In this document: piece after piece, positions 4,468 to 23,275 of the stretch
Numbering within the stretch: position 1 is the stretch's first letter
How the letters are laid out: every line of letters starts with the position of its first letter
DNA from: an uncultured Sedimentitalea sp.
GTDB taxonomy: Bacteria > Pseudomonadota > Alphaproteobacteria > Rhodobacterales > Rhodobacteraceae
Reading direction: 5' to 3'
DNA length: 64,000 nucleotides
NCBI GenBank assembly: GCA_947504115.1
Contig: CANNGH010000005.1
Span: forward strand, 1 to 64,000
The notes under the pieces: model-generated
The model's database searches: none
What the model saw: only the letters and a program-made list of their open reading frames with translations
What the model was told of the DNA's origin: nothing
Position numbers and translations under genes: made by a program

Positions 4468-4995
4468 CAGGTTGGATTTGGGTATTCCGGTTCCCGGTCT
4501 GGTGCAAGCGCGGCGGGCGCGGAGCTCTCAAATTGCTCAAGCGCCCGGCGCGCTTGCTGCGGTGTCTGGTTGCCGAGCGACGAGTGTGGCCTGACGGTGT
4601 TGTAGTCGTAACGCCATAGGGCCAGCTTGCGCCGTGCATCGTCCAGGGTGTCGAATATTTCCTCGTTCAAGATCTCGTCGCGCAGGCTCCCGTTGAAGCT
4701 CTCGATGAAGGCGTTCGCTGGGGCTTGCCGGGATCGATGCGGTGCCAGGGCACCTCGATCTCGTTGGCCCATTTCAGGATAGCCCGACTGGTGAACTCTG
4801 TCCCATTGTCACTGACAATGCAGCCGGGCTTGCCGTAGACCCGGATCAGGGCGCTGAATTCCCGGGCCACTCGTGCGCCCGACAGGCTGGTGTCCGCAAC
4901 GAGGCACAGGCATTCCCGCGTGCAGTCGTCAATCACTGCCAGGATCCGGAACGTCCGCGAGACGCCGAAGCTGTCAGACACGAAGTCCAGGGACC

Positions 4996-5037
4996 CGTCG
5001 CCCGCCAGTCGTTTGCAACGCAAACGATGAGAGGGGG
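4996..5037 (-). repeat. ~40-nt palindromic insert, copy 2, inside transposase
   Basis: The plus strand reads CGCCCGCCAGTC, then GTTTGCAACGCAAAC, then GATGAGAGGGGG. It occupies the place where IS3 integrases of this group have about seven residues before SLDFVSD, and it lengthens the DNA by about 40 nt, shifting the frame. It resembles copy 1 at 5304-5342 in the opposite orientation. The centre is a GTTTGC/GCAAAC palindrome. Confidence 0.6.
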
Positions 5038-5303
5038 CGCGCGCCCCGATGCGCGGCAACCGGCAGCGGTGTCCTGGTGCCGCGCGCCCGTTTCCGGCCG
5101 CGGCGCCGTTGTACCGACAACCCTTCCTCGCGGTAGATACGATACAGCTTCTTGTGGTTAATGATCATACCCTTGCGCTCCAACAGGACGCCGATCCGGC
5201 GATAGCCGAACCGACGCCGCTTGCCGGCGATCTCCTGCATCTCCTTGCGGACCTCAGCACTGTCCGGCGGGCGGTCTCGCCGGACAGACTTGGGATCGAC
5301 ACC

Positions 5304-5342
5304 CCCTCTCATGGTTTGCAAGCAAATCACTGCCGGGCAGTG
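5304..5342 (+). repeat. 39-nt palindromic insert, copy 1, inside transposase
   Basis: The plus strand reads CCCTCTCATG, then GTTTGCAAGCAAAT, then CACTGCCGGGCAGTG. In the transposase frame it adds 13 residues (beginning HCPAVICL) between ACRLV and GVDPK, which are contiguous in related transposases. It holds two palindromes, CACTGCC-C-GGCAGTG and TTTGC-TT-GCAAA, and shares the CCCTCTCAT/GTTTGC core with copy 2. Confidence 0.6.
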
Positions 5343-5462
5343 GACCAGCCTGCAGGCCCGGCGCTGCGAGATGTCGTGATCCCGCATCGCCCGGAGCGCC
5401 GCGTCTCGCCGTCTGGTCGTTCGCCATTGTGCTCGAACCAATGGCGCATCAATGGCTCACCG

Positions 5463-6616: not shown

Positions 6617-7396
6617 CTAAACCATCCGATCGACCATCATCCGCTTGATCTCGGCGATCGCCTTGGCGGGGTTCAGACCCTTGGGGCAGGTCTTGGCGCA
6701 GTTCATGATGGTGTGGCAGCGATACAGCTTGAAGGGATCCTCCAGATCGTCCAGCCGCTCGCCGGTCGCCTCGTCGCGGCTGTCGATGATCCAGCGATAG
6801 GCATGCAACAGCGCCGCCGGGCCAAGATACCGATCCGAGTTCCACCAATAGGAGGGACACGCAGCCGAGCACGAGGCGCACATCACGCATTCATAAAGAC
6901 CGTCCAGTTTCTTGCGATCCTCGATGGATTGCTTCCATTCCTTCGCCGGCGCGTTGGTCTTGGTTTCCAGCCAGGGCATGATGCTGGCGTGCTGGGCATA
7001 AAAATGCGTGAGGTCGGGGATCAGGTCCTTGACCACCGGCATGTGCGGCAGCGGATAGATCCGCACGTCGCCCTTGACCTCGTCCATGCCGTAGATGCAG
7101 GCCAGCGTGTTGATGCCGTCGATATTCATGGCACAGGATCCGCAAATCCCCTCGCGGCACGAGCGGCGGAAGGTCAGGGTGGGATCGATTTCGTTCTTGA
7201 TCTTGATCAGCGCATCCAGAATCATCGGCCCGCAATCGTCCATATCGACGAAATAGGTGTCCACACGCGGGTTTTCCCGGTCATCCGGGTTCCAGCGATA
7301 GATGCTGAACTTGCGCAGATTGGTTGCGCCGTCCGGTTTGGGCCAGGTTTTGCCCGTCTTCATCTTGGAATTCTTGGGCAAGGTCAGTTGGACCAT
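6617..7396 (-). CDS. sdhB: succinate dehydrogenase iron-sulfur subunit
   Basis: The 259-residue electron-transfer subunit of respiratory complex II. It carries three Fe-S clusters between the flavin subunit and the ubiquinone site. The [2Fe-2S] ligands lie in [13 protein letters not shown] (near residues 78-90). The [4Fe-4S] and [3Fe-4S] ligands lie in [17 protein letters not shown] and [17 protein letters not shown]. The length is normal for the family. AGGAGG precedes the start. It is the last structural gene of sdhCDAB, 63 bp after sdhA, and acts on the inner face of the cytoplasmic membrane. Confidence 0.98.
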
Positions 7397-7459
7397 GGTG
7401 TTGCCTCCTGAGAGCAGTGGAAGGTGGGCGCGGCCACATCGGATGGCGACCCGTCCATC

Positions 7460-9265
7460 CTAGAACGTCCGCGCCCGCGGTGCGATCTTGTCCAGATCGA
7501 TGCCACCTTCGGCTTCGGTCGTCAGCGGTTCGGTTATGACCGGACGATGGGACAGTTCGACCGCGTTGCCATGGACGCGCGCGATGGTGTGCACGCGCCA
7601 GTTCTCGTCGTCGCGCTCGGCATAATCCTCGCGCGCATGGGCGCCGCGGCTTTCGTGGCGTGCTTCGGCGCCGTGGATCGTGGCCAGCGCATTGGGCATG
7701 AGGTTGGTCAGCTCCAGCGTTTCCATCAGGTCGCTGTTCCAGATCAGGCTGCGATCAGTGACGTGCATATCGTCCAGCTTGTCGGCGATGACGGTCATGC
7801 GCTTGACACCGTCGGCCAACGTCTCGGCGGTGCGGAACACCGCCGCGTCGGCCTGCATGGTGCGCTGCATCTCAAGCCGCAGGTCCGCCGTGGGCGTGCC
7901 GCCATTGGCGTTGCGCAGCCGGTCGAAACGGTCGAACGCGGCATCCACCGACGCCTGGTTCAACTCGGGATTGGCGGCCTCGGGGTCCACCACCTTGCCG
8001 GCCCGTATCGCGGCGGCACGGCCGAACACCACAAGGTCGATCAGCGAGTTCGATCCAAGCCGGTTGGCCCCATGCACCGAGGCGCAGCCCGCCTCGCCCA
8101 CGGCCATTAGGCCGGGAACCACGGCGTTGGGGTCTTCGGGCGTCGGATTCAGCGCCTCGCCCCAGTGGTTGGTGGGGATGCCGCCCATGTTGTAATGCAC
8201 GGTGGGCAGAACCGGGATCGGCTCCTTGGTGACGTCCACGCCCGCGAAGATGCGCGCGCTTTCCGAAATACCCGGCAGGCGTTCGTGCAGCGCCTCGGGC
8301 GGCAGGTGGCTGAGGTTCAGGTGGATGTGGTCGCCCTGACGGCCCACACCGCGCCCTTCGCGGATCTCCATGGTCATCGAGCGGCTGACGTAATCGCGCG
8401 GAGCCAGATCCTTGTATTGCGGCGCATAGCGTTCCATGAACCGCTCGCCCTCGGAATTGGTCAGATACCCGCCCTCGCCGCGCGCGCCCTCGGTGATCAG
8501 GCAGCCGGCGCCGTAAATGCCGGTCGGGTGGAATTGCACGAACTCCATGTCCTGAAGCGGCAGCCCCGCGCGCACGACCATGCCGCCGCCATCGCCGGTG
8601 CAGGTATGGGCCGAGGTGCAGGAGAAATAGGCACGCCCATAGCCGCCCGTCGCCAGCACCACCATCTTGGCGTTGAACACATGCATGGTGCCGTCGTCCA
8701 GTTTCCAGCAGACGACGCCCTGGCAATGTCCGTCCTCGGACATGATCAGGTCGATGGCGAAATATTCGACGTAGAATTCGGCCTTCTGCTTCAGGCTCTG
8801 CCCGTAAAGCGTGTGCAGGATCGCATGGCCGGTGCGGTCGGCGGCGGCACAGGTGCGCTGCACCGGGGGGCCTTCGCCGAATTCGGTCGTGTGGCCGCCG
8901 AAGGGACGTTGATAGATCTTGCCCTCTTCGGTGCGGGAAAACGGCACGCCGTAATGTTCCAGCTCGTAAACCGCCTTGGGCGCCTCGCGGGCGAGGTATT
9001 CCATCGCGTCGGTATCGCCCAGCCAGTCGCTGCCCTTGACGGTGTCATACATATGCCACTGCCAGTTGTCGGGGCCCATGTTGGACAGCGACGCGGCGAT
9101 GCCGCCCTGCGCCGCGACGGTGTGGCTGCGTGTCGGGAACACCTTGGTCACGCAGGCGGTGCGCAGGCCCTGTTCGGCCATGCCCAGCGTCGCGCGCAGA
9201 CCCGCGCCACCGGCACCCACCACGACGACATCATATTCGTGGGTTTCGTATTCGTAAGCTGCCAT
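7460..9265 (-). CDS. sdhA: succinate dehydrogenase flavoprotein subunit
   Basis: The 601-residue catalytic subunit that oxidises succinate to fumarate in the TCA cycle, with covalently bound FAD. The Rossmann dinucleotide motif is at [16 protein letters not shown] (residues 14-29). The flavin-linking His is in [14 protein letters not shown], and the active-site loop includes [23 protein letters not shown]. Near the C terminus the conserved R-(E)[10 protein letters not shown] block is present. Length is typical of alphaproteobacterial SdhA. GAGGAT precedes the ATG, 12 bp after sdhD. Confidence 0.98.
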
Positions 9266-9277
9266 TGGTTCAGATCC

Positions 9278-9649
9278 TCAAAGTGCTATTTTCACCAGGG
9301 CAAAAAGCCCTGTCGCCATAACCGCATAGCTGAATGCGGCGATCGACATGATAAGCACCTTGCGGGTGATGCCTTTCGAGTAATCCTCGACCATCGTCTG
9401 CGCGCCCTTGCGGAAATGCAGCATTCCAACCACCAGCACCAACCCCGTCAGGACCGCGGGAAGCGGATGGCTGAAGGTTTCCAGAACCTCTTCGTGGCTT
9501 TTGCCCAGGGAACTGCCGAAGACATAAAGAAAAGCCGGCACAATCAGCGCCAGCCCGAAGGCGCTGATCTGCATCTGCCAGTGGTGCTCGGTCCCGGAAC
9601 CGGCGGCCCCACGCCCTTCGGCCCGCTTGCGATCGGTCAGAAAACGCAT
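9278..9649 (-). CDS. sdhD: succinate dehydrogenase membrane anchor subunit D
   Basis: A 123-residue hydrophobic anchor with three predicted membrane helices (around ISAFGLALIVPAFLYVFG, LTGLVLVVGMLHF and KVLIMSIAAFSYAVMATGLF). The His in VVGMLHFRKG is placed as the haem b or quinone-site ligand of SdhD. With SdhC it holds SdhAB on the membrane and forms the quinone site. It starts 11 bp after sdhC ends and is followed by sdhA. Confidence 0.93.
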   Translation of the reverse strand: MRFLTDRKRAEGRGAAGSGTEHHWQMQISAFGLALIVPAFLYVFGSSLGKSHEEVLETFSHPLPAVLTGLVLVVGMLHFRKGAQTMVEDYSKGITRKVLIMSIAAFSYAVMATGLFALVKIAL

Positions 9650-9660
9650 GGCTCGCTCCT

Positions 9661-10050
9661 TCAGATGATGATGATTGTGAGGATGGTCAGAACGACCGAT
9701 CCGATGATGACCGCCCAGCCCAGTTTCTCGGCCGTCGGAATGTCCAGCCCGCGCCCCGTATCCCAGTAAAGGTGCCGCAATCCGGCCAGATAATGATACC
9801 AGATGCCCCAAAGCGACAGGATCAGCACGATGTTGCCGATAATGCTTGTCAGAATTCCGTCGGCCCGCGCGAACGCATCGGGCGAGGTCGCCGCCGCCAG
9901 AAGCCACCAGACGAACAGGACCGCAGAGATCGCCAGGGCATTACCGGTGATCCGCGTCAGGATCGACGTGATCGAAGTCAACTGCAAACGATAATACGGC
10001 CCCAGCATGAACGGCGAGAGCGGGCGCTCGTTCTTTTTCACTTCGGACAT
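9661..10050 (-). CDS. sdhC: succinate dehydrogenase cytochrome b556 subunit C
   Basis: A 129-residue haem-b anchor and the first gene of the operon. The N-terminal RPLSPFMLGPYYRLQLTSITSI block is the SdhC signature preceding helix 1, with the Ser/Arg region that forms the quinone site. The conserved His residues lie in WYHYLAGLRHLYWD. Three membrane helices are visible and the last ends at the C terminus. AAGGAG precedes the start. The promoter region upstream contains a tandem palindromic operator (10169-10198). Confidence 0.95.
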   Translation of the reverse strand: MSEVKKNERPLSPFMLGPYYRLQLTSITSILTRITGNALAISAVLFVWWLLAAATSPDAFARADGILTSIIGNIVLILSLWGIWYHYLAGLRHLYWDTGRGLDIPTAEKLGWAVIIGSVVLTILTIIII

Positions 10051-10327
10051 GGAAGCTCCTTTCCGGTAGGGTTCCCTACGTGTTTAGCGTTTTTTACGCG
10101 ACTGTCACGGGGGATCGGTAAAGTTCGGGCGCGATTAATTGGCGCAACATGCGCGCTTTGCGCGAAATGTGATCACGCAATCTGGGACTGTGATCACGAA
10201 ACGACTCCTCGGGGAAGACTTGCCTTGAATCTGTTGCCGGCTTACGTAACGTTTCGAAAATCGACGATTTCCCAATTTCGGGACAGGTGTTCGGGACCGC
10301 CCGGATATGTGAGTTCGGGAGGACAAC
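10051..10327. promoter_or_regulatory. divergent sdhC / PACE promoter region
   Basis: A 277-bp divergent spacer. Near sdhC there is a GTAGGG-TT-CCCTAC palindrome (10066-10079). The most striking feature is the paired operator at 10169-10198. The middle is A+T richer than the flanks. Confidence 0.6.
10169..10198. promoter_or_regulatory. tandem TGTGATCACG operator upstream of sdhC
   Basis: Two identical 10-mers, TGTGATCACG at 10169-10178 and 10189-10198, each contain the 8-bp palindrome GTGATCAC. Their start-to-start spacing is 20 bp, two helical turns. The pair lies about 120-150 bp upstream of sdhC. A near-identical pair sits upstream of sucC (16276-16306). This looks like the site of a dimeric regulator bound cooperatively; its identity is unknown. 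Confidence 0.55.
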
Positions 10328-10777
10328 ATGCGCACCACGGGCGATCGCATCCGTCATGCCATCAGTTTCGAGATCATTGGACTCATCTTGTTCACGCTTG
10401 CCGGCACGTGGCTTTTCAACACGCCGATCGCCGATATGGGCGTTATTGCGATTGTCGGCGCGACCGTCGCGATGCTGTGGAACTATCTTTACAATCTGCT
10501 TTTCGATCATGCATTGCTGCGGATCAGGGGGCAACTCAACAAGACGGTGGCCATGCGGGTGTTTCACTCCCTCCTGTTCGAGGCGGGATTGATGATCATA
10601 ATGCTGCCCTTCATCGCCTGGTATCTTCGCATCTCGTGGATGGACGCCTTCATCATGGATTTCGGATACGCCCTGTTCTTCATGGTTTACGCGTTCGTGT
10701 TCAACTGGGCCTATGACATCGTGTTCCCGATACCCGGACTGCGCGCCAAGGATCAGAGCGGCATCAAGGCCCAGTAA
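10328..10777 (+). CDS. PACE-family efflux transporter (bacterial transmembrane pair domains)
   Basis: A 149-residue membrane protein with four predicted helices arranged as two bacterial-transmembrane-pair repeats. Each repeat starts with an R-x-x-H-A/F-x-x-F-E pattern: RIRHAISFEIIGL near residue 7 and MRVFHSLLFEAGL near residue 77. It contains the conserved NYLYNLLFDH and NWAYDIVFP motifs. PACE proteins such as AceI export biocides or polyamines by proton exchange; the substrate here is unknown. GGGAGG precedes the start. The 3' end overlaps the convergent mch gene by about 25 bp. Confidence 0.85.
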   Translation: MRTTGDRIRHAISFEIIGLILFTLAGTWLFNTPIADMGVIAIVGATVAMLWNYLYNLLFDHALLRIRGQLNKTVAMRVFHSLLFEAGLMIIMLPFIAWYLRISWMDAFIMDFGYALFFMVYAFVFNWAYDIVFPIPGLRAKDQSGIKAQ

Positions 10778-11787
10778 TCCAGATCCAGCAGCACGTCGGG
10801 CAGGTATTTGCCATCGTCCCCGCGCAGCGCGAACGGGTCGCCGCCCTTGGTCGCCACCAGCCGCAGACGGATCGCACCGACACCCGGCGCGGCGGTCTCG
10901 GCCTTGTCCAGCACCTCGGACCAGGCGCGCACCGTGTCGCCGGCGAAACAGGGATTGGCATGCGCCCCGCCGTTCAGCGCCACGACCATCTGCGCGTTCG
11001 CCAGCCCGTTGAAGGACAGCGCCCGCGCCATCGAGATCACATGCCCGCCATAGATCAGCCGCTTGCCGTCGTCGCGGTTGGTCGCGTCGAAATGCACCTT
11101 GGCGGTGTTCTGCCACAGGCGGGTGGCCAGCATGTGCTCGGCCTCTTCGATGGTGACGCCATCGACATGGTCGATCCGCTCGCCCACCTGGTAATCGCTC
11201 CAGCGATGCGGCTCGCCCGCCAACGCGAAATCGTAGGAGGTGAAATCCAGCCCGTCGGGGATCACCAGCCGGTCGGCCGGAACCGTATCGAACAGATCGG
11301 GCAGCACGGTTTCAGGCGCGGGAAGATCCTGATCGTGCTTGCGCACCATGACCCAGCGGACATATTCCAGCACCGCCTCGTCGCGCTGGTTCAGGCCGGT
11401 GGTGCGCACCCAGACGACGCCGGATTTCCCGTTGGAATTCTGCTTGATCCCGATCACCTCGGAAACCGAGCGCAGCGTGTCGCCGGGCCAGACCGGGCGC
11501 AGCCAGCGCCCCTCGGCATAGCCCAGATTGGCCAGCGCGTTCAGCGATATGTCGGGCACCGTCTTGCCGAAGACCACATGAAACGCCGCCCAATCATCCA
11601 GCGGACTGGCCGGCAAACCGCAAGCCTGCGCGAAGGCATCCGACGAGACCAGCGCATGGCGGGCCGGATAAAGCGCGTGATAAAGCGCTCGCTCGCCCCC
11701 GGAGACGGTGCGCGGAACCGCGTGGGTGATCACATCGCCCACCGCGTAATCCTCGAAAAAGCGGCCCGGATTGGTCTTTGCCATCAT
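10753..11787 (-). CDS. mch: mesaconyl-C1-CoA hydratase (beta-methylmalyl-CoA dehydratase), MaoC family
   Basis: A 344-residue double-hotdog MaoC-type hydratase that interconverts mesaconyl-C1-CoA and erythro-beta-methylmalyl-CoA in the ethylmalonyl-CoA pathway of acetate assimilation. The N-terminus (MAKTNPGRFFEDY, then VPRTVSGGERALYHALYPARHAL) closely resembles the Rhodobacter enzyme as I know it. The second half carries IYGGHVISMARALSFNGL, the usual hydratase region. ATG at 11787 overlaps the TGA of the DUF1737 gene (ATGA), indicating translational coupling. An adjacent ATG at 11784 is equally possible. Its operon partners nnrU and mcl2 fit the pathway assignment. Confidence 0.93.
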   Translation of the reverse strand: MMAKTNPGRFFEDYAVGDVITHAVPRTVSGGERALYHALYPARHALVSSDAFAQACGLPASPLDDWAAFHVVFGKTVPDISLNALANLGYAEGRWLRPVWPGDTLRSVSEVIGIKQNSNGKSGVVWVRTTGLNQRDEAVLEYVRWVMVRKHDQDLPAPETVLPDLFDTVPADRLVIPDGLDFTSYDFALAGEPHRWSDYQVGERIDHVDGVTIEEAEHMLATRLWQNTAKVHFDATNRDDGKRLIYGGHVISMARALSFNGLANAQMVVALNGGAHANPCFAGDTVRAWSEVLDKAETAAPGVGAIRLRLVATKGGDPFALRGDDGKYLPDVLLDLDYWALMPL

Positions 11788-11987
11788 TGCTGCCCCAGCT
11801 TCATGTCCGGGGTGTAATCCCCCGGCGCTTCCTTGGTCACGGCCTGTCCGCAGCGCATCACGCCGTTCGCGGCGTCATAGGCATATGTCGGATGGCCATA
11901 GAGGCTCCAGCCCTTGCCGAGCGCCTCGCTCACCTTGTGGCAAAAGGCGGAATCATCTTCGCCTGTCAGGAATCGGTAAAGTTTCAT
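11784..11987 (-). CDS. DUF1737 domain-containing small protein
   Basis: A 67-residue cytoplasmic protein of the DUF1737 family. The N-terminal MKLYRFLTGEDDSAFCHKVSEAL and the W-x-L-Y-G-x-P motif (GWSLYGHPTYAYD) are the family signature. Its function is unknown. It sits between nnrU and mch, four bases into mch, in a compact operon. This neighbourhood in ethylmalonyl-CoA-pathway bacteria suggests an accessory role, but nothing in the sequence shows one. Confidence 0.85.
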   Translation of the reverse strand: MKLYRFLTGEDDSAFCHKVSEALGKGWSLYGHPTYAYDAANGVMRCGQAVTKEAPGDYTPDMKLGQQ

Positions 11988-11990
11988 CGG

Positions 11991-12536
11991 TTATCCAAAC
12001 GGGTAGTAGCCCAGCAATGTGTGCAGCCATGCGATCACGCCATAAACCACGAGCGTGGCGACGATTGCGATGATCTCCTTGCGCATCGGGGCGGGTGCGG
12101 GCCGGGACCAGGATTGCGAGCGGTTGATGACGATCACCTCGGCCACGGCCCAAGCCAGAAGCCCGCCGAACAGCACCAGCGATGGCACATCGCCATTCAC
12201 CAGAAGATGCGCGATGGCCCAGGTCTTGACGGCGGTCAGCTGCGGATGCCGGATCGTGCGCGCCAGCCGGGTCTGCATGCCGCTGACGGCGAACAGATAG
12301 ACGGCGAACAGCATCAGCAGATCGGCGATGCCCACGGTTGCCGGGTGACGGCCCCAGAACGTCGTCCCCACCTCGGCGCTGCGATAGCCGATCACCATCA
12401 GCACGATACCGGCCAGCGCCAGCACGGCGACCAGTCCCTTGCCCGCATCGCCCATGGCCGCACGCTGCGCGGGCAAGGCGCGTTTGAAGAAATGCGCGCC
12501 AGCCCACAGCAACAGGCCGAGGATCAGCAGGATCAT
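11991..12536 (-). CDS. NnrU family membrane protein
   Basis: A 181-residue inner-membrane protein with five or six helices and the NnrU signature: GAHFFKR near the N terminus, GYRSAEV in the middle, and the RHPQLTAVKTWAIAHLLVNGD block characteristic of NnrU/isoprenylcysteine-methyltransferase-like membrane proteins. NnrU was named for nitric-oxide-reductase neighbourhoods, but no denitrification gene is present here. The ATG at 12536 overlaps the mcl2 stop (ATGA), so it is translated with the malyl-CoA thioesterase. Its biochemical activity is unknown. Confidence 0.88.
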   Translation of the reverse strand: MILLILGLLLWAGAHFFKRALPAQRAAMGDAGKGLVAVLALAGIVLMVIGYRSAEVGTTFWGRHPATVGIADLLMLFAVYLFAVSGMQTRLARTIRHPQLTAVKTWAIAHLLVNGDVPSLVLFGGLLAWAVAEVIVINRSQSWSRPAPAPMRKEIIAIVATLVVYGVIAWLHTLLGYYPFG

Positions 12537-13399
12537 GTCACGCTCTCCGTCTTGCGGGCCTCGATCGCCTCGGCTTTCTCCAGCGTCACACGGGCGGTCG
12601 CGACGTGCAGGTTCTCGACGATCCGGCCATCGACGACGGCAACGCCCCGCCCCTGCTTGCTGGCCTCCTCGAAGGCGGCGATCTGCCGGCGGGCCAGATC
12701 GATTTCGCCCGACGTCGGCGCAAAGATCCGGTTGGCCACCTCGACCTGCGCGGGGTGGATCAGCGTCTTGCCGTCAAAGCCCATGTCCCGGCCCTGCGCG
12801 CATTCCGTGGCCAGCCCGTCAGTGTCCCGGTAGGAATTATAAACCCCATCGACGATAATGCGCCCCTCGGCCTTGGCCGCCAGCATGCAAAGGTCCAGCG
12901 ACGTCAGCAACGGCCCGCGGTCGGGGCGGAAACGGGCGTTCAATTCGCTGGTCAGGTCGTTCGTGCCCATCACCAATCCGTCGACTTTCGAATGCGCGGC
13001 GATGGCCGGTGCGTTCAGCATCCCGCGCGGCGTTTCCATCATGGCCCAGATCGGCAGGTCACCCGTTATTTCGGCCAGCATGTCCACCTTGTCGGGGCTG
13101 TCCACCTTGGGCAAAAGCACGGCGTCGGTCGCCATGTCCCGCGCCGCCTCGGCATCGGCGCGGCCCCATTCGGTGTCCAGCCCGTTGATCCGCACGATGC
13201 GCATGCGCGGCCCGAATCCGCCCTGCGCCAGCGCGTCTTTCAACGTATGGCGCGCGGCCGGCTTCACCTCGGGCGCGACCGCATCCTCGAGATCGAAGAT
13301 GATTGCATCGACGGGCAACGTCCGCGCCTTTTCCAATGCGCGTTCGTTCGACGCGGGAAGATAGAGAACCGAGCGGTAAAGTCGGGCGCGATGGACCAT
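12533..13399 (-). CDS. mcl2: (3S)-malyl-CoA thioesterase (CitE-like)
   Basis: A 288-residue CitE/HpcH-type TIM-barrel protein. It matches Mcl2, the thioesterase that hydrolyses (3S)-malyl-CoA to malate and CoA, better than the 318-residue lyase Mcl1. Visible signatures are RSVLYLPASNERALEKA, FDLEDAVAPEVK (Mg-binding acidic residues), IWAMMETPRGMLN, GLVMGTNDLTSEL and FDGKTLIHPAQ. The start at 13399 has an AGGAGGG ribosome site; the frame is open for 41 codons upstream but without such a site. It is the first gene of the mcl2-nnrU-DUF1737-mch operon. Its product malate feeds the adjacent mdh. Confidence 0.9.
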   Translation of the reverse strand: MVHRARLYRSVLYLPASNERALEKARTLPVDAIIFDLEDAVAPEVKPAARHTLKDALAQGGFGPRMRIVRINGLDTEWGRADAEAARDMATDAVLLPKVDSPDKVDMLAEITGDLPIWAMMETPRGMLNAPAIAAHSKVDGLVMGTNDLTSELNARFRPDRGPLLTSLDLCMLAAKAEGRIIVDGVYNSYRDTDGLATECAQGRDMGFDGKTLIHPAQVEVANRIFAPTSGEIDLARRQIAAFEEASKQGRGVAVVDGRIVENLHVATARVTLEKAEAIEARKTESVT

Positions 13400-14751
<1,352 letters not shown>

Positions 14752-14774
14752 CAACGGCAACAGAACCGGAAGGC

Positions 14775-14808
14775 AAAAAGGCACGCCATGCAAGGCGTGC
14801 CTTTGTTC
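14775..14808 (+). terminator. Rho-independent terminator after mdh
   Basis: AAAAAGGCACGCC-ATGCA-AGGCGTGCCTTTGTT forms a 9-bp stem flanked by A and T runs, 24 bp after the mdh stop. It may also serve the convergent coiled-coil gene. Confidence 0.85.
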
Positions 14809-14836
14809 ATGTGCGGCTGTTATTCCGGCGACCGGA

Positions 14837-16132
14837 TCACTGCTGCTGCGTTTCGTTGGCGGACGCATTGCCGGAGTTCGCCGGTTGACCATCATCGCGT
14901 TTCGGCGATTTCGCGTTTTCCTTTTCGTCACCCTCTGATTGCTCGGACTGCTGAGCGCTGTCCTGATCGTTCGCAGCACCGTTGTCTTCGGCCTCTTCGC
15001 CTTCACTCGTCGCTGGCTGCTGGCTATCGCCCCGCTGCGCATTCGCGGCTCCGGTCTCGGCCGTCTCGCTCGCAGGCTCTGCGCTCGGCTTGTCGTCGCC
15101 CGTATCGCCTTTTGCGTCGGCCTTTCCTTCTGCCTCGCTCTTCACGGATGGCAGATTGCTGCGCTGCTGCTGCTGCGACGATTCACCCTGCGTCTGCGTG
15201 GTGGCCTTCGCGCCCTTGGGCGCGGCCGTCTCTCCGTCCTGACCTTGGCTGGCCTTCGCGCCCAACGGTGCCGCAGTCTGTTGTTGCGCCTCGCCGATCC
15301 GCTCTTCGATCTCGGCCAGTTTCGCGCTGCGATCCCTCAGGTCGCCGCTCAGCGAGGTCACGATCTTCTGCACCTCGTCGCGCTGCTTTTCCACCGCGCG
15401 CAGATCCGACATCACCGCATTCTGCCGCTCGGACAACTCTGCCACACTTTGTTCCAGCGATGCCTTGCGCTGTTCCAGATCCGCCGTCGTCTTCTCGGCC
15501 TGCGTCACCCGTTCGCTCAGTTTGGATTCCCGCTCGGTCATGCCTTGAAGGCGCTCTTCCGCTTCGGCGGTCTCTTCGGACAGGCGTGCGGCGTCCTGCG
15601 TCAGCGACGCGAGAGTCTGGCGCAACTCGGCTTCGCGGGTGCGGGCCTCTTCCAGCCGGGCGCCGACTTCGGTCAATTCGTCGGTCTGCTGGGCGATCTG
15701 GTCCGTCAATTCGGTGCTGCGGCTCTCGAACTGACCGATTTCCTCGCGCAATGGCTCGGCCTGGGCATTCAGGCTGTCGATCTTTTGCTGCGTCGCGGTG
15801 GCTTCCTCGCTCAACGCGTCGCGGCGGCTTTCAAGTTCCTCGACCTCGCCTGTCAGCGTTCCGACTTCCTGCTGCACGGTTTCGCGTTGCGTCGTCAGCT
15901 CGTCGATCTCAGGCTGTAATTCCGCTTTGCGTGCCTCCATCTGCTCAACGTCGCCCGCGACGGAGCGTTGCTCGTCAAGATCCTGCTGCACGACCTCTAT
16001 GCGGCGCTCCAGACTGCTTTCCAGACGGCTTCGGGAGATCCCGAAATATGCGGCCAGCAGCCACCCGATCACTGCAATGATGATCACAAAAACCAGCAGG
16101 CCGCTGGTCGATTTACGTGTTGATTCGGCCAT
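14837..16132 (-). CDS. membrane-anchored coiled-coil protein of unknown function
   Basis: A 431-residue protein. It has an N-terminal membrane helix (GLLVFVIIIAVIGWLLAAYF, about residues 11-30), a long Glu/Gln/Arg-rich coiled coil (roughly residues 35-285, with many heptads and 'TQRETVQQEVGTL' style runs), then a disordered Ala/Gln/Glu/Ser-rich tail ending in QQQ. The start at 16132 has GAAGGGGATGG. Most of the protein would face the periplasm or cytoplasm as a rod; the side cannot be read from sequence. It is transcribed away from sucC and shares that promoter region with its TGTGATCAC pair. I know no characterised homologue. Confidence 0.8.
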   Translation of the reverse strand: MAESTRKSTSGLLVFVIIIAVIGWLLAAYFGISRSRLESSLERRIEVVQQDLDEQRSVAGDVEQMEARKAELQPEIDELTTQRETVQQEVGTLTGEVEELESRRDALSEEATATQQKIDSLNAQAEPLREEIGQFESRSTELTDQIAQQTDELTEVGARLEEARTREAELRQTLASLTQDAARLSEETAEAEERLQGMTERESKLSERVTQAEKTTADLEQRKASLEQSVAELSERQNAVMSDLRAVEKQRDEVQKIVTSLSGDLRDRSAKLAEIEERIGEAQQQTAAPLGAKASQGQDGETAAPKGAKATTQTQGESSQQQQRSNLPSVKSEAEGKADAKGDTGDDKPSAEPASETAETGAANAQRGDSQQPATSEGEEAEDNGAANDQDSAQQSEQSEGDEKENAKSPKRDDGQPANSGNASANETQQQ

Positions 16133-16275
16133 TCCATCCCCTTCAGCTTCCGGCGCAGTTTGCCAAGCACCTTGAGGCTTGAAACGCGGCTGACCCCGTT
16201 CGGTTCCCCGACAGATCGATTTTTCGCCCAAGCCAACGCGCTCCGAACCCCATGAATGGGGTTCCCTTGCGGATT

Positions 16276-16306
16276 TGCGATCACACGATTTTCGCCTGTG
16301 ATCACA
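16276..16306. promoter_or_regulatory. tandem TGYGATCACA operator upstream of sucC
   Basis: TGCGATCACA at 16276-16285 and TGTGATCACA at 16297-16306 are spaced 21 bp start to start. They lie about 110-140 bp before the sucC ATG, almost the same geometry as the pair upstream of sdhC. The sites also lie 144 bp upstream of the divergent coiled-coil gene. Confidence 0.55.
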
Positions 16307-16414
16307 AATGTCGCTTTTCCACCGTAAATCGCCGTCGCGACAGACTTTGCTGTTAACTTGCGCCCGACACCCGCCTATACCCCAGACGATCACAGCTGGA
16401 CGGACGGTTCCAAG

Positions 16415-17614
16415 ATGAACATCCACGAATACCAGGCCAAGGCGCTTCTGCGCAGTTTCGGAGCCCCGGTGCCCGACGGGCGGGTCGTGTTGCGGGCCGA
16501 AGACGCGAAAAGCGCGGCGGGCGAACTGGATGGACCGTTATGGGTGGTGAAGGCCCAGATCCATGCCGGCGGACGCGGCAAGGGCAAGTTCAAGGAGACG
16601 GATGCCGGCGTGAAAGGCGGCGTGCGGTTGGCGAACTCGGTCGAAGAGGCCGCCGCCGAAGCCCGCAAGATGCTGGGCCGCACCCTTGTCACCGATCAGA
16701 CCGGTCCTGAGGGCAAGCGGGTCAACCGCGTCTATATCGAGGACGGCAGCGGCGTCGCGACCGAACTTTACCTGGCGCTGCTGGTGGATCGCAGGACAAG
16801 CCGCACCTCGTTCGTCTGCTCGACCGAGGGCGGCATGGATATCGAGCAAGTCGCCGCCAGCACCCCCGATAAAATCCTGTCCGTGGGCGTCGATCCGGTG
16901 ACCGGCTATCAGGCCTTCCACGGCCGCCGCATCGCGTTTGCGCTGGGGCTGGAGGGCAAGCAGGTCAAGCAATGTGTCGCGCTGATGCGGTTGCTGTATC
17001 GGGCGGTTCTGGAAAAGGACATGGAGATGCTCGAGATCAACCCGCTGATCGTGACCGACGCGGGCGATCTCAGGGTGCTGGACGCCAAGATCGGCTTTGA
17101 CGACAACGCGCTTTACCGCCACGGCGACATCGCGGATCTGCGTGACGAAACCGAAGAGGACCCCAAGGAACTGGAAGCCGGCAGATACGATCTGAATTAT
17201 ATCGCGCTGGACGGCGAGATCGGCTGCATGGTCAATGGCGCCGGACTGGCCATGGCGACCATGGACATCATCAAGCTCTATGGTGCGGAACCGGCGAACT
17301 TTCTGGATGTCGGCGGCGGCGCCACCACGGAAAAGGTCGCGGCGGCATTCAAGATCATCACCTCGGACCCCAACGTCAAAGGCATCCTCGTCAACATCTT
17401 CGGCGGCATCATGCGCTGCGACGTGATCGCCGAAGGCGTGGTGCAGGCGGTCAAGGAGGTCGGGCTGAAGGTGCCGCTGGTCGTGCGTCTTGAAGGGACC
17501 AACGGCGAGAGGGGCCGGGACATCATCAACGATTCGGGTCTTGACGTCATCGCCGCCGCCGATCTCAAGGACGGCGCGCAGAAGATCGTGCAGGCGGTCC
17601 GGGGGTTGACGTAG
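16415..17614 (+). CDS. sucC: succinyl-CoA synthetase beta subunit (ADP-forming)
   Basis: The 399-residue ATP-grasp subunit that, with SucD, converts succinyl-CoA to succinate with formation of ATP. The N-terminal [16 protein letters not shown], the nucleotide-grasp region [18 protein letters not shown], the Mg/substrate region EINPLIVT, and the C-terminal loop [16 protein letters not shown] and [13 protein letters not shown] are all present. The ATG at 16415 begins the conserved N terminus. The stop codon is embedded in a 14-bp inverted repeat that separates it from sucD. Confidence 0.97.
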
Positions 17615-17668
17615 GGCGGGGTTCACCCCGCCTTTGCGAAACGACATTGCGGGCTGAACCCCGCCCTA
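17612..17668. repeat. inverted-repeat element between sucC and sucD
   Basis: TAGGGCGGGGTTCA at 17612-17625 (including the sucC stop) and its exact reverse complement TGAACCCCGCCCTA at 17655-17668 enclose a second small GC-rich stem. It resembles the REP-like 'GGGCGGGGTTCACCCCGCC' units common in this family of bacteria and would fold into a strong intercistronic hairpin. Confidence 0.7.
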
Positions 17669-17685
17669 TAACGGAGATGTGCCGC

Positions 17686-18567
17686 ATGGCGATCCTCATC
17701 GGCGAGAACACCAGGGTCATCTGTCAGGGTCTGACCGGCAGCCAGGGCACGTTCCACACTGATCAGGCCATGGCCTATGGCACAAAAATGGTCGGCGGCG
17801 TCACCCCCGGCAAGGGTGGGCAGACGCATCTGGACCTGCCCGTGTTCGACACGGTCCATGACGCCCGGGCCGCGACCGGCGCCGATGCGACGGTGATCTA
17901 TGTGCCGCCCCCCTTTGCCGCCGACAGCATCCTCGAGGCGATCGACGCCGGAATGGAATTGATCGTCTGCATCACCGAAGGCATCCCGGTTCTGGACATG
18001 ATGAAGGTCAAGGCTGCGTTGCAGACGGGCAAGTCGCGGCTGATCGGTCCGAACTGCCCCGGTGTGATGAGCCCCGGCGCCTGCAAGATCGGCATCATGC
18101 CGGGTTCGATCTTCGCGCGCGGCTCGGTCGGGCTCGTGTCCCGGTCGGGCACGCTGACCTACGAGGCGGTGAAACAGACCAGCGATGTCGGTCTGGGCCA
18201 GTCCACCGCCGTGGGCATCGGCGGCGACCCGATCAAGGGGACCGAGTTCATCGACGTGCTGGAGATGTTCCTGGCCGACGACCAGACCGAAAGCATCATC
18301 ATGATCGGCGAGATCGGCGGCTCGGCCGAAGAGGACGCAGCGCAGTTCCTGGCGGACGAGCGCAAGAACGGCCGCTGGAAGCCGACAGCCGGTTTCATCG
18401 CCGGACGCACCGCGCCGCCGGGACGGCGCATGGGCCATGCCGGCGCCATCGTCGCCGGCGGCACGGGCGGCGCCGAGGACAAGATCGAGGCGATGCAATC
18501 CGCCGGAATCGTGGTCGCCGACAGCCCCGCGACGCTGGGCGAGGCCGTGCTGAAGGCAATCGGCTGA
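17686..18567 (+). CDS. sucD: succinyl-CoA synthetase alpha subunit
   Basis: The 293-residue CoA-binding and phosphohistidine subunit of succinyl-CoA synthetase. Landmarks are [21 protein letters not shown] (CoA Rossmann region), [37 protein letters not shown] and the phosphorylated His in [20 protein letters not shown] lies upstream of the ATG at 17686; an in-frame ATG at 17677 would add only MCR. It follows sucC across a hairpin-bearing 71-bp spacer and is probably cotranscribed with it. Confidence 0.97.
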
Positions 18568-18756
18568 TGTCTGACATGCCGCCACCCCCGCCATGGGTGA
18601 CCCGCGCCTGCCCGCGTCACGAGGTGAGATGAATATGCCGCTTTGCCAAAACGTTCCGGCCTTTGCCGCAACGACATTCGTTGCCCGAACGGCACCTTTG
18701 GCCTACGCTTCTTTACGCCCCTTCATATCCGGTTTCAACTCTTTCAAGGTATCGAC

Positions 18757-21717
18757 ATGACCGATCAGTCCTCCACCGACCAGTTTCATGCCTCGTCTTT
18801 CATGCAAGGGCACAATGCCGAATATCTGGAACAGCTCTACGCCCAGTATGCCGGCGATCCCGCGGCGGTCGATGCCGCCTGGGCCGAGTTTTTCCGCGAA
18901 CTGGGCGATTCCGATCAGGACGTCAAACGCGAGGCCGCCGGCCCCTCGTGGGCGCGCAGCGACTGGCCGCCGGTGCCCCATGACGATCTGACCGCCGCGC
19001 TGACCGGCGAGTGGCCCGCAGAAGAGGCCAGCGCCGCCGCGGCCAAGATCACCGGCAAGGCCGATGCCGCCAAGGTTGAACTGTCCGAAGAAAACGTCAA
19101 ACGCGCTGTTCTGGACAGCGTCCGTGCGCTGATGCTGATCCGTGCCTATCGCATCCGTGGCCACCTGATCGCCGATCTTGACCCGCTGAACATGCGCGAT
19201 GAATCCTATCGCCCCGAACTCGATCCGGCGACCTATGGCTTCACCGATGCCGACATGGACCGGCCGATCTTCATCGACAACGTCCTGGGCCTTCAGATCG
19301 CGCCGCTGCGCCAGATCATCGAAATCGTCAAGCGCACCTATTGCGGCACCTTCGCGTTGCAGTTCATGCACATTTCCAACCCGCAGCAATCCGCCTGGCT
19401 GAAGGAGCGGATCGAGGGGTTCGGCAAGGAAATCCAGTTTACCCGTGAAGGACGCAAGGCGATCCTCAACAAGATGGTCGAGGCCGAAGGGTTCGAAAAA
19501 TTCCTGCATGTCAAATACATGGGCACCAAACGCTTTGGGCTGGACGGCGGCGAAAGCCTGATCCCCGCGATGGAGCAGATCATCAAGCGCGGTGGCGCCC
19601 TCGGGGTCAAGGATGTGGTGATCGGCATGCCGCATCGGGGCCGCCTGTCGGTTCTGGCCAACGTGATGGGCAAACCCTATCGCGCCATCTTCAACGAATT
19701 CCAGGGCGGCAGTTTCAAGCCCGAGGATGTGGACGGTTCGGGCGACGTGAAATATCACCTCGGCGCGTCGTCCGACCGCGAATTCGACGGCAACGTCGTA
19801 CACCTGTCTCTGACCGCCAATCCCAGCCACCTGGAGGCGGTGAACCCCGTCGTTCTGGGCAAGGCGCGGGCGAAACAGGACCATGACAACGACACGGACC
19901 GTACCGGCGTCCTGCCGGTCCTGCTGCATGGCGATGCGGCCTTTGCCGGTCAGGGCGTCGTGGCGGAATGTTTCCAGTTGTCGGGCATCCGCGGCCATCG
20001 CACGGGCGGCACCATGCATATCGTGGTGAACAATCAGATCGGGTTCACCACCGCGCCGCATTTCAGCCGCACCTCGCCCTATCCGACCGATATCGCCATG
20101 ATGGTCGGGGCGCCGATCTTCCACGTCAACGGCGACGACCCCGAAGCCGTGGTTCATGCCGCCAAGGTCGCCACCGAGTTCCGGCAGAAGTTCCACAAGG
20201 ACGTGGTGCTCGATATCTTCTGCTACCGCCGCTTCGGCCACAACGAAGGCGACGAGCCGATGTTCACCAACCCCTTGATGTACAAGAACATCAAGACCCA
20301 CAAGACGACGCTCAGCCTCTATACCGAACGTCTTGTCGCGGACGGCTTGATCCCCGAGGGCGAGATCGAGGACATGAAGGCGTCGTTTCAGGCCCATCTG
20401 AACGAGGAATTCGAGGCCGGCAAGAACTACAAGCCCAACAAGGCCGACTGGCTGGACGGGCGCTGGTCGCATCTGGACCGGCGGGCGACCGACGATTACC
20501 AGCGCGGCGAAACCGCGATCAAACCCGAAACCCTTGAGGAAGTCGGCCGCGCCCTGACACGCACGCCGGACGGTTTTCCGCTGCACCGCACCGTCTCGCG
20601 GCTGCTGGACGCCAAGAAGGAGATGTTCGAAACCGGCAAGGGTTTTGATTGGGCAACGGCCGAAGCGCTGGCCTTCGGCAGCCTCGTGACCGAGGGATAT
20701 ACGGTGCGGCTGGCCGGACAGGACAGCACGCGCGGCACCTTCAGCCAACGCCATTCCGCGCTGATCAACCAGGAGACCGAGGAGCGGTATTATCCGCTGA
20801 ACCACATCCGCGAGGGCCAGGCGCATTACGAGGTCATCGACTCGATGCTGTCGGAATACGCGGTTCTGGGTTTCGAATACGGCTATTCGCTGGCCGAACC
20901 CAATGCGCTGGTGGCCTGGGAGGCACAGTTCGGCGATTTCGCCAATGGTGCCCAGATCATGTTCGACCAGTTCATTTCGGCCGGTGAAAGCAAATGGCTG
21001 CGCATGTCCGGCCTCGTCTGCCTGCTGCCGCATGGCTATGAGGGGCAAGGCCCGGAGCATTCCAGCGCCCGGCTGGAGCGGTTCCTGCAGATGTGCGGTC
21101 AGGACAACTGGATCGTCGCCAACTGCACGACCCCGGCCAACTACTTCCACATCCTGCGCCGCCAGCTGCACCGCGATTTCCGCAAGCCACTGATGCTGAT
21201 GACGCCGAAATCGCTGCTGCGTCACAAGCTGGCCGTCAGCAGCGCCGAGAATTTCACCACCGGTTCGTCGTTCCACCGCGTGCTCTGGGACGACGCCGAG
21301 CGCGAGGGGTCGGAAATGCAACTGGCCCCGGATGACAGCATCCGCCGGGTCGTGATGTGCTCGGGCAAGGTCTATTACGACCTGCTGGAAGAACGCGACG
21401 AGCGTGGCCTGGATGACATCTATCTGCTGCGCGTCGAACAATTCTATCCGTTCCCGGCGCTCAGCCTGGTCAAGGAGTTGGAACGCTTCAAGCAGGCCGA
21501 AATCATCTGGTGCCAGGAAGAGCCCAAGAACCAGGGCGCCTGGACCTTTATAGAGCCCAATATCGAATGGGTTCTGAACCGGATCGACGCGCAGCACAAA
21601 CGCCCGCGCTATGTCGGCCGGCCAACATCTGCCTCGCCCGCGACTGGCCTCGCCAGCCAGCACAAGAAACAACAAGACGCGCTCGTGAACGAGGCGCTGA
21701 CCATCGAAGGAAACTGA
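18757..21717 (+). CDS. sucA: 2-oxoglutarate dehydrogenase E1 component
   Basis: The 986-residue thiamine-diphosphate decarboxylase that starts the 2-oxoglutarate dehydrogenase reaction. The N-terminal E2-binding segment ([18 protein letters not shown]) is followed by [20 protein letters not shown], the ThDP motif beginning [15 protein letters not shown] and ending in NNQIGFTT, and the C-terminal transketolase-like domain ([39 protein letters not shown]). The start at 18757 gives the conserved N terminus. The TGA is separated from the sucB ATG by one base, so translation is coupled. Confidence 0.97.
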
Positions 21718-21718
21718 C

Positions 21719-23275
<1,557 letters not shown>

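Follow-up and report, generated by a model that had tools for sequence, protein, structure and literature searches.

The closest described counterpart of the system considered here is the AkgR (RSP_0981) regulon of Rhodobacter sphaeroides, reportedly set out by Imam and colleagues in 2015. In two papers, the palindrome GTGATCAC is identified among the binding sites of the R. sphaeroides activator AkgR (PMC6365646), and the GntR regulator RSP_0981 is predicted to control sucCD, sdh, and sucAB (PMC4344238). Two tandem pairs of this palindrome lie upstream of sdhC and sucC, in two operons of the tricarboxylic acid (TCA) cycle, within a 64-kb stretch of DNA (hereafter, the window) from the 3,563,531-base (3.56-Mb) genome of an uncultured Sedimentitalea sp. 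We hold with high confidence, on comparative grounds, that both pairs are operators of AkgR, an already published activator of the GntR family (FCD subfamily); they are very probably a known regulator's operators, newly mapped in another genus. This reading names a likely regulator for two central TCA-cycle promoters of this organism.

One genome of the comparative set, designated G046, is presumably that of R. sphaeroides 2.4.1. The two systems have in common the palindrome (PMC6365646), the target operons (as predicted in PMC4344238), a GntR gene that lies just beyond sdhB in G046 and whose orthologue here is 78% identical, and pairs at both sdhC and sucC, spaced 21 bp in G046. Gene order in G046 agrees with the positions in a table of PMC4344238. 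In contrast, the present genome belongs to another genus, its akgR lies on a different contig from sdh, and one of its four sites is degenerate. The octamer GTGATCAC is also predicted to be used by the Pseudomonas simiae GntR protein PS417_07240, to which AkgR is 32% identical; however, that regulator is proposed to control deoxyribonate oxidation genes from one site at −47 to −40, with no tandem pair mentioned in the text available (PMC6365646).

Palindrome pairs at the sdhC and sucC promoters

The two target promoters contain three exact palindromes and one with a single mismatch (Table 1). On the plus strand, both sdhC sites read as the decamer TGTGATCACG (10168-10177 and 10189-10198), and those of sucC read as TGCGATCACA (16276-16285) and TGTGATCACA (16297-16306). 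A preliminary description of this DNA had located all four sites correctly, with three full palindromes and a fourth matching at 7 of 8 bases, and its distances to the start codons agree with those in Table 1. Its 21-bp spacing for sucC also stands, whereas the 20 bp given for sdhC must be corrected; both pairs share a 21-bp register, counted from site start to site start. The same description had rightly held that the motif is not the Crp or Fnr consensus. Crp and Fnr sites take the form TGTGA-N6-TCACA or TTGAT-N4-ATCAA, and such an identity was rejected because the half sites of the pairs, by inspection, abut without a spacer.

Table 1. Putative AkgR-type sites, promoter elements, target operons, and the akgR orthologue (window coordinates unless a contig is given)
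Feature	Position	Strand	Remarks
Promoter-proximal AkgR-type site of sdhC, GTGATCAC	10169..10176	-	Starts at −126 from sdhC start codon; putative, from sequence and conservation
Distal AkgR-type site of sdhC, GTGATCAC	10190..10197	-	Starts at −147, 21 bp from proximal site; putative
Distal AkgR-type site of sucC, GCGATCAC, one mismatch	16277..16284	+	Starts at −138; putative
Promoter-proximal AkgR-type site of sucC, GTGATCAC	16298..16305	+	Starts at −117, 21 bp from distal site; putative
Putative −35 of sdhC, GTGACA	10103..10108	-	+68 from proximal site start; assigned by consensus
Putative −10 of sdhC, TAAACA	10081..10086	-	16 bp from −35; assigned by consensus
Putative −35 of sucC, TTAACT	16353..16358	+	+55 from proximal site start; assigned by consensus
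Putative −10 of sucC, TATACC	16376..16381	+	17 bp from −35; assigned by consensus
sdhC-sdhD-sdhA-sdhB target operon	6617..10050	-	sdhC 9661-10050 (start codon at 10050), sdhA 7460-9265, sdhB 6617-7396; names from recognisable sequence
sucC-sucD-sucA-sucB gene run	16415..23275	+	sucC start codon at 16415; presumed single operon read from sucC promoter
akgR orthologue (g19), GntR/FCD protein	G000:C2:464284-464928	-	Outside window

Both pairs sit within divergent intergenic regions, and the malate dehydrogenase gene lies between the sdh and suc operons. The divergent neighbours are a PACE-family efflux transporter (10328-10777; NCBIfam PACE_transport), which shares its intergenic region with the sdhC pair, and, next to sucC, a coiled-coil protein gene starting at 16132 on the minus strand. 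Neither neighbour had a match at E 1e-3 in the loci of the first 40 relatives compared, and hence the pairs are taken to belong to sdhC and sucC.

It is the pair, rather than the single octamer, that is rare: GTGATCAC has six exact copies in the window alone. The longer TGTGATCACR occurs exactly at seven places in the genome, three of them in the sdhC and sucC promoters; of the other four, two lie in acs-like and hutI-like frames (identified by eye), one at the end of a GntR gene, and one in a small reading frame, and none looks like a promoter operator. A genome-wide scan for the paired pattern, GATCACR-N8..16-TGYGATCA, returned the sdhC and sucC promoters only. All 256 palindromic octamers served as a control. 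Over 786 kb, comprising the window and the loci of 40 relatives, GTGATCAC forms 56 exact pairs at 19–22 bp, and none of the other 255 octamers pairs more than once at that distance. The pattern read backwards gave no match; it contains CTAG, which is rare in such genomes, and so was not counted as a control.

Conservation was followed in 99 relatives, one per genus of the family, with the region around the malate dehydrogenase gene taken from 98 of them; the 99th, G056, gave no malate dehydrogenase match above threshold, and the stretch taken from it yielded no sdhC or sucC start. An upstream region was scanned when at least 200 bases preceded the sdhC or sucC start, up to 450 bases were examined, and a pair was defined as two copies of GTGATCAC that together have no more than one mismatch. 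The pairs recur at the orthologous promoters, as the regulator envisaged in the preliminary description would have it: with the present genome included, they were found in 74 of 81 sdhC regions (65 at 21 bp, 8 at 20, and 1 at 19) and in 81 of 88 sucC regions (74 at 21 bp and 7 at 20). Taken together, the 155 pairs are spaced 21 bp (139), 20 bp (15), or 19 bp (1), and this 19–21-bp range held for the best pair in every pair-bearing region when spacings of 10–60 bp were allowed and ties went to the spacing nearest 21. In the consensus of the 139 pairs spaced 21 bp, the outer flanks are mirror images (ttTGTGATCACac...tGTGATCACAaa); therefore, the whole element is an inverted repeat. No exact site was found within 400 bp upstream of sucA in any of the 21 relatives examined, and sucAB is thus presumed to be read from the sucC promoter.

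Each site contains GATC, and without a dedicated regulator the pairs could in principle be GATC clusters with a structural or methylation role, or repeats that arose by chance. We regard this as extremely unlikely: conservation extends over the full octamer and the flanks outside it, the spacing stays at 19–21 bp throughout, no other palindromic octamer pairs in a similar way, and sucC pairs vanish together with AkgR (see below). For a further regulator, the LacI-family protein CceR (RSP_1663), sdh and mdh are likewise predicted targets in R. sphaeroides, but its predicted site is GTT-N6-8-AAC, not GTGATCAC (PMC4344238). Of the 155 pair-bearing regions, only 14 have a CceR-like GTT-N6-8-AAC close to the pair, at scattered positions, and no fixed partner site was found among them.

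Some variation in the arrangement was recorded. Among the 69 genomes with both pairs, G008 and G050 have 20-bp spacing in both promoters, and six others have it at sdhC only. In the sdhC promoters of G027, G033, G038, and G067, a third exact GTGATCAC stands at nearly the same place, 77–78 bp upstream of the proximal site start; in 12 other genomes, a third exact site lies elsewhere in the 450 bp.

AkgR as the candidate regulator

The akgR orthologue of this genome encodes a protein with an N-terminal GntR winged helix and a C-terminal FCD domain, both over the Pfam cut-offs (PF00392, 41.7 bits against 27; PF07729, 61.8 bits against 24.3). It is one of seven GntR-domain genes, six of which have FCD domains (one FCD fragment is additionally present), and its next paralogue in the genome (C3:240452) is 43% identical to it. 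Its best NCBIfam match, PRK11414 (GntR family transcriptional regulator), falls far under the cut-off (79.5 versus 225 bits). The closest solved sequence relative is Escherichia coli McbR (structure 4p9f; E 1.5e-19), whose regulon differs from that of AkgR. FCD domains typically bind metal through an Asp and three His. In AkgR, two His are invariant in 21 sequences, and the apparent third His position, assigned by eye without a structure, is Asp in 21 of 21 (R.DVT); the metal site might thus be a changed one. Beyond sdhB, on the side where G046 has akgR adjoining sdhB, the window contains transposase-like open reading frames (4667-5441; IS3-type look, by eye).

A search for AkgR at 62% identity or above covered 100 genomes and did not find it in 11 of them (G004, G013, G016, G025, G043, G049, G054, G076, G092, G093, and G018). 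A sucC pair was present in all 80 AkgR-bearing genomes examined versus one of the eight that lack AkgR; read the other way, all seven genomes without the sucC pair also lack AkgR, and 80 of the 81 with the pair have it. The sdhC pair is missing from seven genomes, three without AkgR and four with it. Sites and regulator are therefore present or absent together at sucC, and less strictly so at sdhC (Fisher p 1.3e-9 and 4e-4, respectively, by statistics that ignore relatedness). On a FastTree tree built on four proteins, with G018 left out of the count, AkgR presence changes at least seven times, five of these changes being forced by supported branches, and the sucC pair changes with AkgR in four of four supported independent contrasts.

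The motif is tied to AkgR independently of sdh and suc by the akgR promoter itself. A single exact GTGATCAC stands just before the akgR start in 34 of 42 akgR loci (locus L216 was too short to score). The nearest TTGAC lies 18 bp before this site in 26 of the 34; the site therefore covers the expected −10 region of akgR, an arrangement that suggests autorepression in these relatives.

A second GntR/FCD gene of this genome, g14 (G000:C1:374530-375180), is found across the family almost as widely as akgR, and its product was weighed as the binder of the pairs. Orthologues at 65% identity or more occur in 36 of the first 40 relatives. The remaining four, with a weak g14 match or none, are G004, G013, G016, and G025, and these are the relatives among the 40 whose sdhC or sucC upstream regions were examined and showed no pair; this fit arises because the pairless genomes are mostly distant ones. 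Later genomes told the two proteins apart: in G053 and G083, AkgR and the sucC pair are both present, but g14 is missing at E<=1e-30. Moreover, the sucC contrasts agree less with g14 than with AkgR (a mean of 2.8 of 4 against 4 of 4), and g19 (AkgR), not g14, is orthologous to the predicted R. sphaeroides regulator. The candidate was rejected, and a role for g14 as the binder is considered very unlikely. With g14 as the query, no GntR gene was found in the sdh-suc stretches of the first 40 relatives; the one that adjoins sdhB in G046 is the g19 orthologue. G056 lacks g14 and has AkgR, and its pair-like match is not placeable at sdhC or sucC.

Several observations weigh against AkgR as the protein that binds the pairs. 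The equation of AkgR with RSP_0981 is an assumption, made on what an mBio abstract of 2015 reportedly states. The sucC pair is present in G018, where no akgR was found (a 2.3-Mb assembly, 91% complete, in 210 contigs), and the four genomes with AkgR and no sdhC pair are G011 (which keeps one site), G061, G083, and G094. The sdhC pair agrees with AkgR in two of three independent contrasts, the third showing no change, and the four contrasts at sucC are too few for a sign test to reach 0.05. In the present genome, the distal sucC site is the degenerate GCGATCAC. The akgR promoter has no site in 8 of the 42 loci, those of this genome and of G046 included. Finally, two genomes of another family have an exact pair with no AkgR orthologue at the cut-off given below.

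What the sequences show directly is the sites, how they are spaced and conserved, that they occur together with akgR, and that relatives have a single site at akgR. That one dimeric regulator is common to both TCA-cycle operons, as the preliminary description had suggested, is supported by the same comparative evidence. The AkgR circuit, described in one species, thus appears to extend to most of the family's 100 sampled genera and to be lost together with the sucC operator, and the tandem pair would provide a searchable DNA signature that predicts AkgR.

Beyond the family, a sample of 192 genomes of the class was searched at an orthologue cut-off of E <= 1e-45. AkgR was found in three genomes, all of the same family as the present one, and no orthologue at this cut-off was found in the 189 other members of the sample. 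Exact pairs at 20–22 bp occurred in six of the 192: the same three, two of one other family, and one in which the pair lies inside a reading frame. At locus L223, which belongs to one of the two genomes of the other family, an exact 21-bp GTGATCAC pair (992-1020) lies between a TonB-receptor-like frame (by eye) and a GntR gene. This gene was rejected as AkgR-like, being only 31% identical to AkgR and 29% to g14; the pair is thus not evidence for AkgR in that family and indicates only that a GntR protein of some kind is encoded beside it.

Promoter geometry and a possible mode of action

The putative −35 of sucC lies about one helical turn closer to its pair than does that of sdhC. TT is found at +55/56 in 56 of the 81 pair-bearing sucC promoters, and a simple sigma-70 score gave no single −35 position for sucC common to all genomes. 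For sdhC, the 74 pair-bearing promoters were scanned with [GT]TGAC[AT], which matched once in 63, twice in two, and not at all in nine; only the 63 were scored. Of these, 55, the present genome included, have the match +65 to +68 from where the proximal site starts. In seven others it is displaced, to 44, 55, 57, 58, 76, 79, and 88 from the proximal site start, that is, by −23, −12, −10, −9, +9, +12, and +21 bp from the median, and every offset is within 2 bp of whole 10.5-bp turns. The test of helical phase is small and post hoc, the pattern having been spotted in a first set to which 20 further genomes added one displaced promoter (G097, +12), and its Rayleigh p for the seven is 0.027 at 10.5 bp per turn, 0.018 at 11.0, and 0.13 at 10.0. 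G028 was dropped because of a run of N upstream; with it, n is 8 and p about 0.036.

A mode of action may be proposed from this geometry. One AkgR dimer would sit on each GTGATCAC palindrome of a pair, and the centre-to-centre distance of 21 bp, or two helical turns, would place both dimers on the same face of the DNA. The 19–21-bp register and the mirrored outer flanks lead us to infer cooperative binding. With the inner edge of the pair about 47 bp (sucC) or 60 bp (sdhC) upstream of the putative −35, AkgR would activate transcription of sdhCDAB and sucCD-sucAB from an upstream position, and one signal would thereby govern succinyl-CoA synthetase, 2-oxoglutarate dehydrogenase, and succinate dehydrogenase alike. 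The single site that most of the examined relatives have over the akgR promoter would additionally repress akgR; the present genome is without this site. Dimer occupancy, contact with RNA polymerase, autorepression, and the effector are all steps that we infer. The full scheme is a phase-locked switch, in which two AkgR dimers on one DNA face (19–21 bp apart, never a half turn) activate RNA polymerase from upstream, the distance to the promoter changes only by whole helical turns, and, in most of the family, the single site at the akgR promoter provides negative feedback. We put it forward tentatively, doubting it slightly more than we believe it.

FCD regulators often repress, and in this organism AkgR could act through the pairs as a repressor or in a dual role; the akgR site of relatives, which covers the expected −10, fits repression at that promoter. 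At sdhC and sucC, however, the pairs lie well upstream of the putative −35 and not over the promoter, and AkgR is called an activator in PMC6365646, so that repression or dual control of the two operons seems improbable. The position of the sites, upstream and in phase, suits an activator in contact with RNA polymerase, and the literature describes AkgR as an activator. On this reading, the displaced sdhC promoters offer naturally occurring differences in spacing with which activation by a GntR protein of the FCD type could be studied.

A text search of the literature with the longer motif letters gave no paper evidently about the motif among the matches listed. Likewise, no paper among the matches listed was evidently on the fixed tandem geometry, the whole-turn displacements, or the widespread akgR site, the primary AkgR paper being outside the searched literature; these features may be unpublished.

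Many sdhC promoters (21 relatives) also contain, roughly 31 bp beyond where the proximal site starts, a block that reads GCGCCAAAAAACCGCG or much like it, the copy in the present genome being GCGCCAATTAATCGCG (window 10130-10151, minus strand). In G097, a block of the GCGCCAAAAAACCGCG type is displaced by 12 bp together with the −35. This block is possibly the site of a second regulator.

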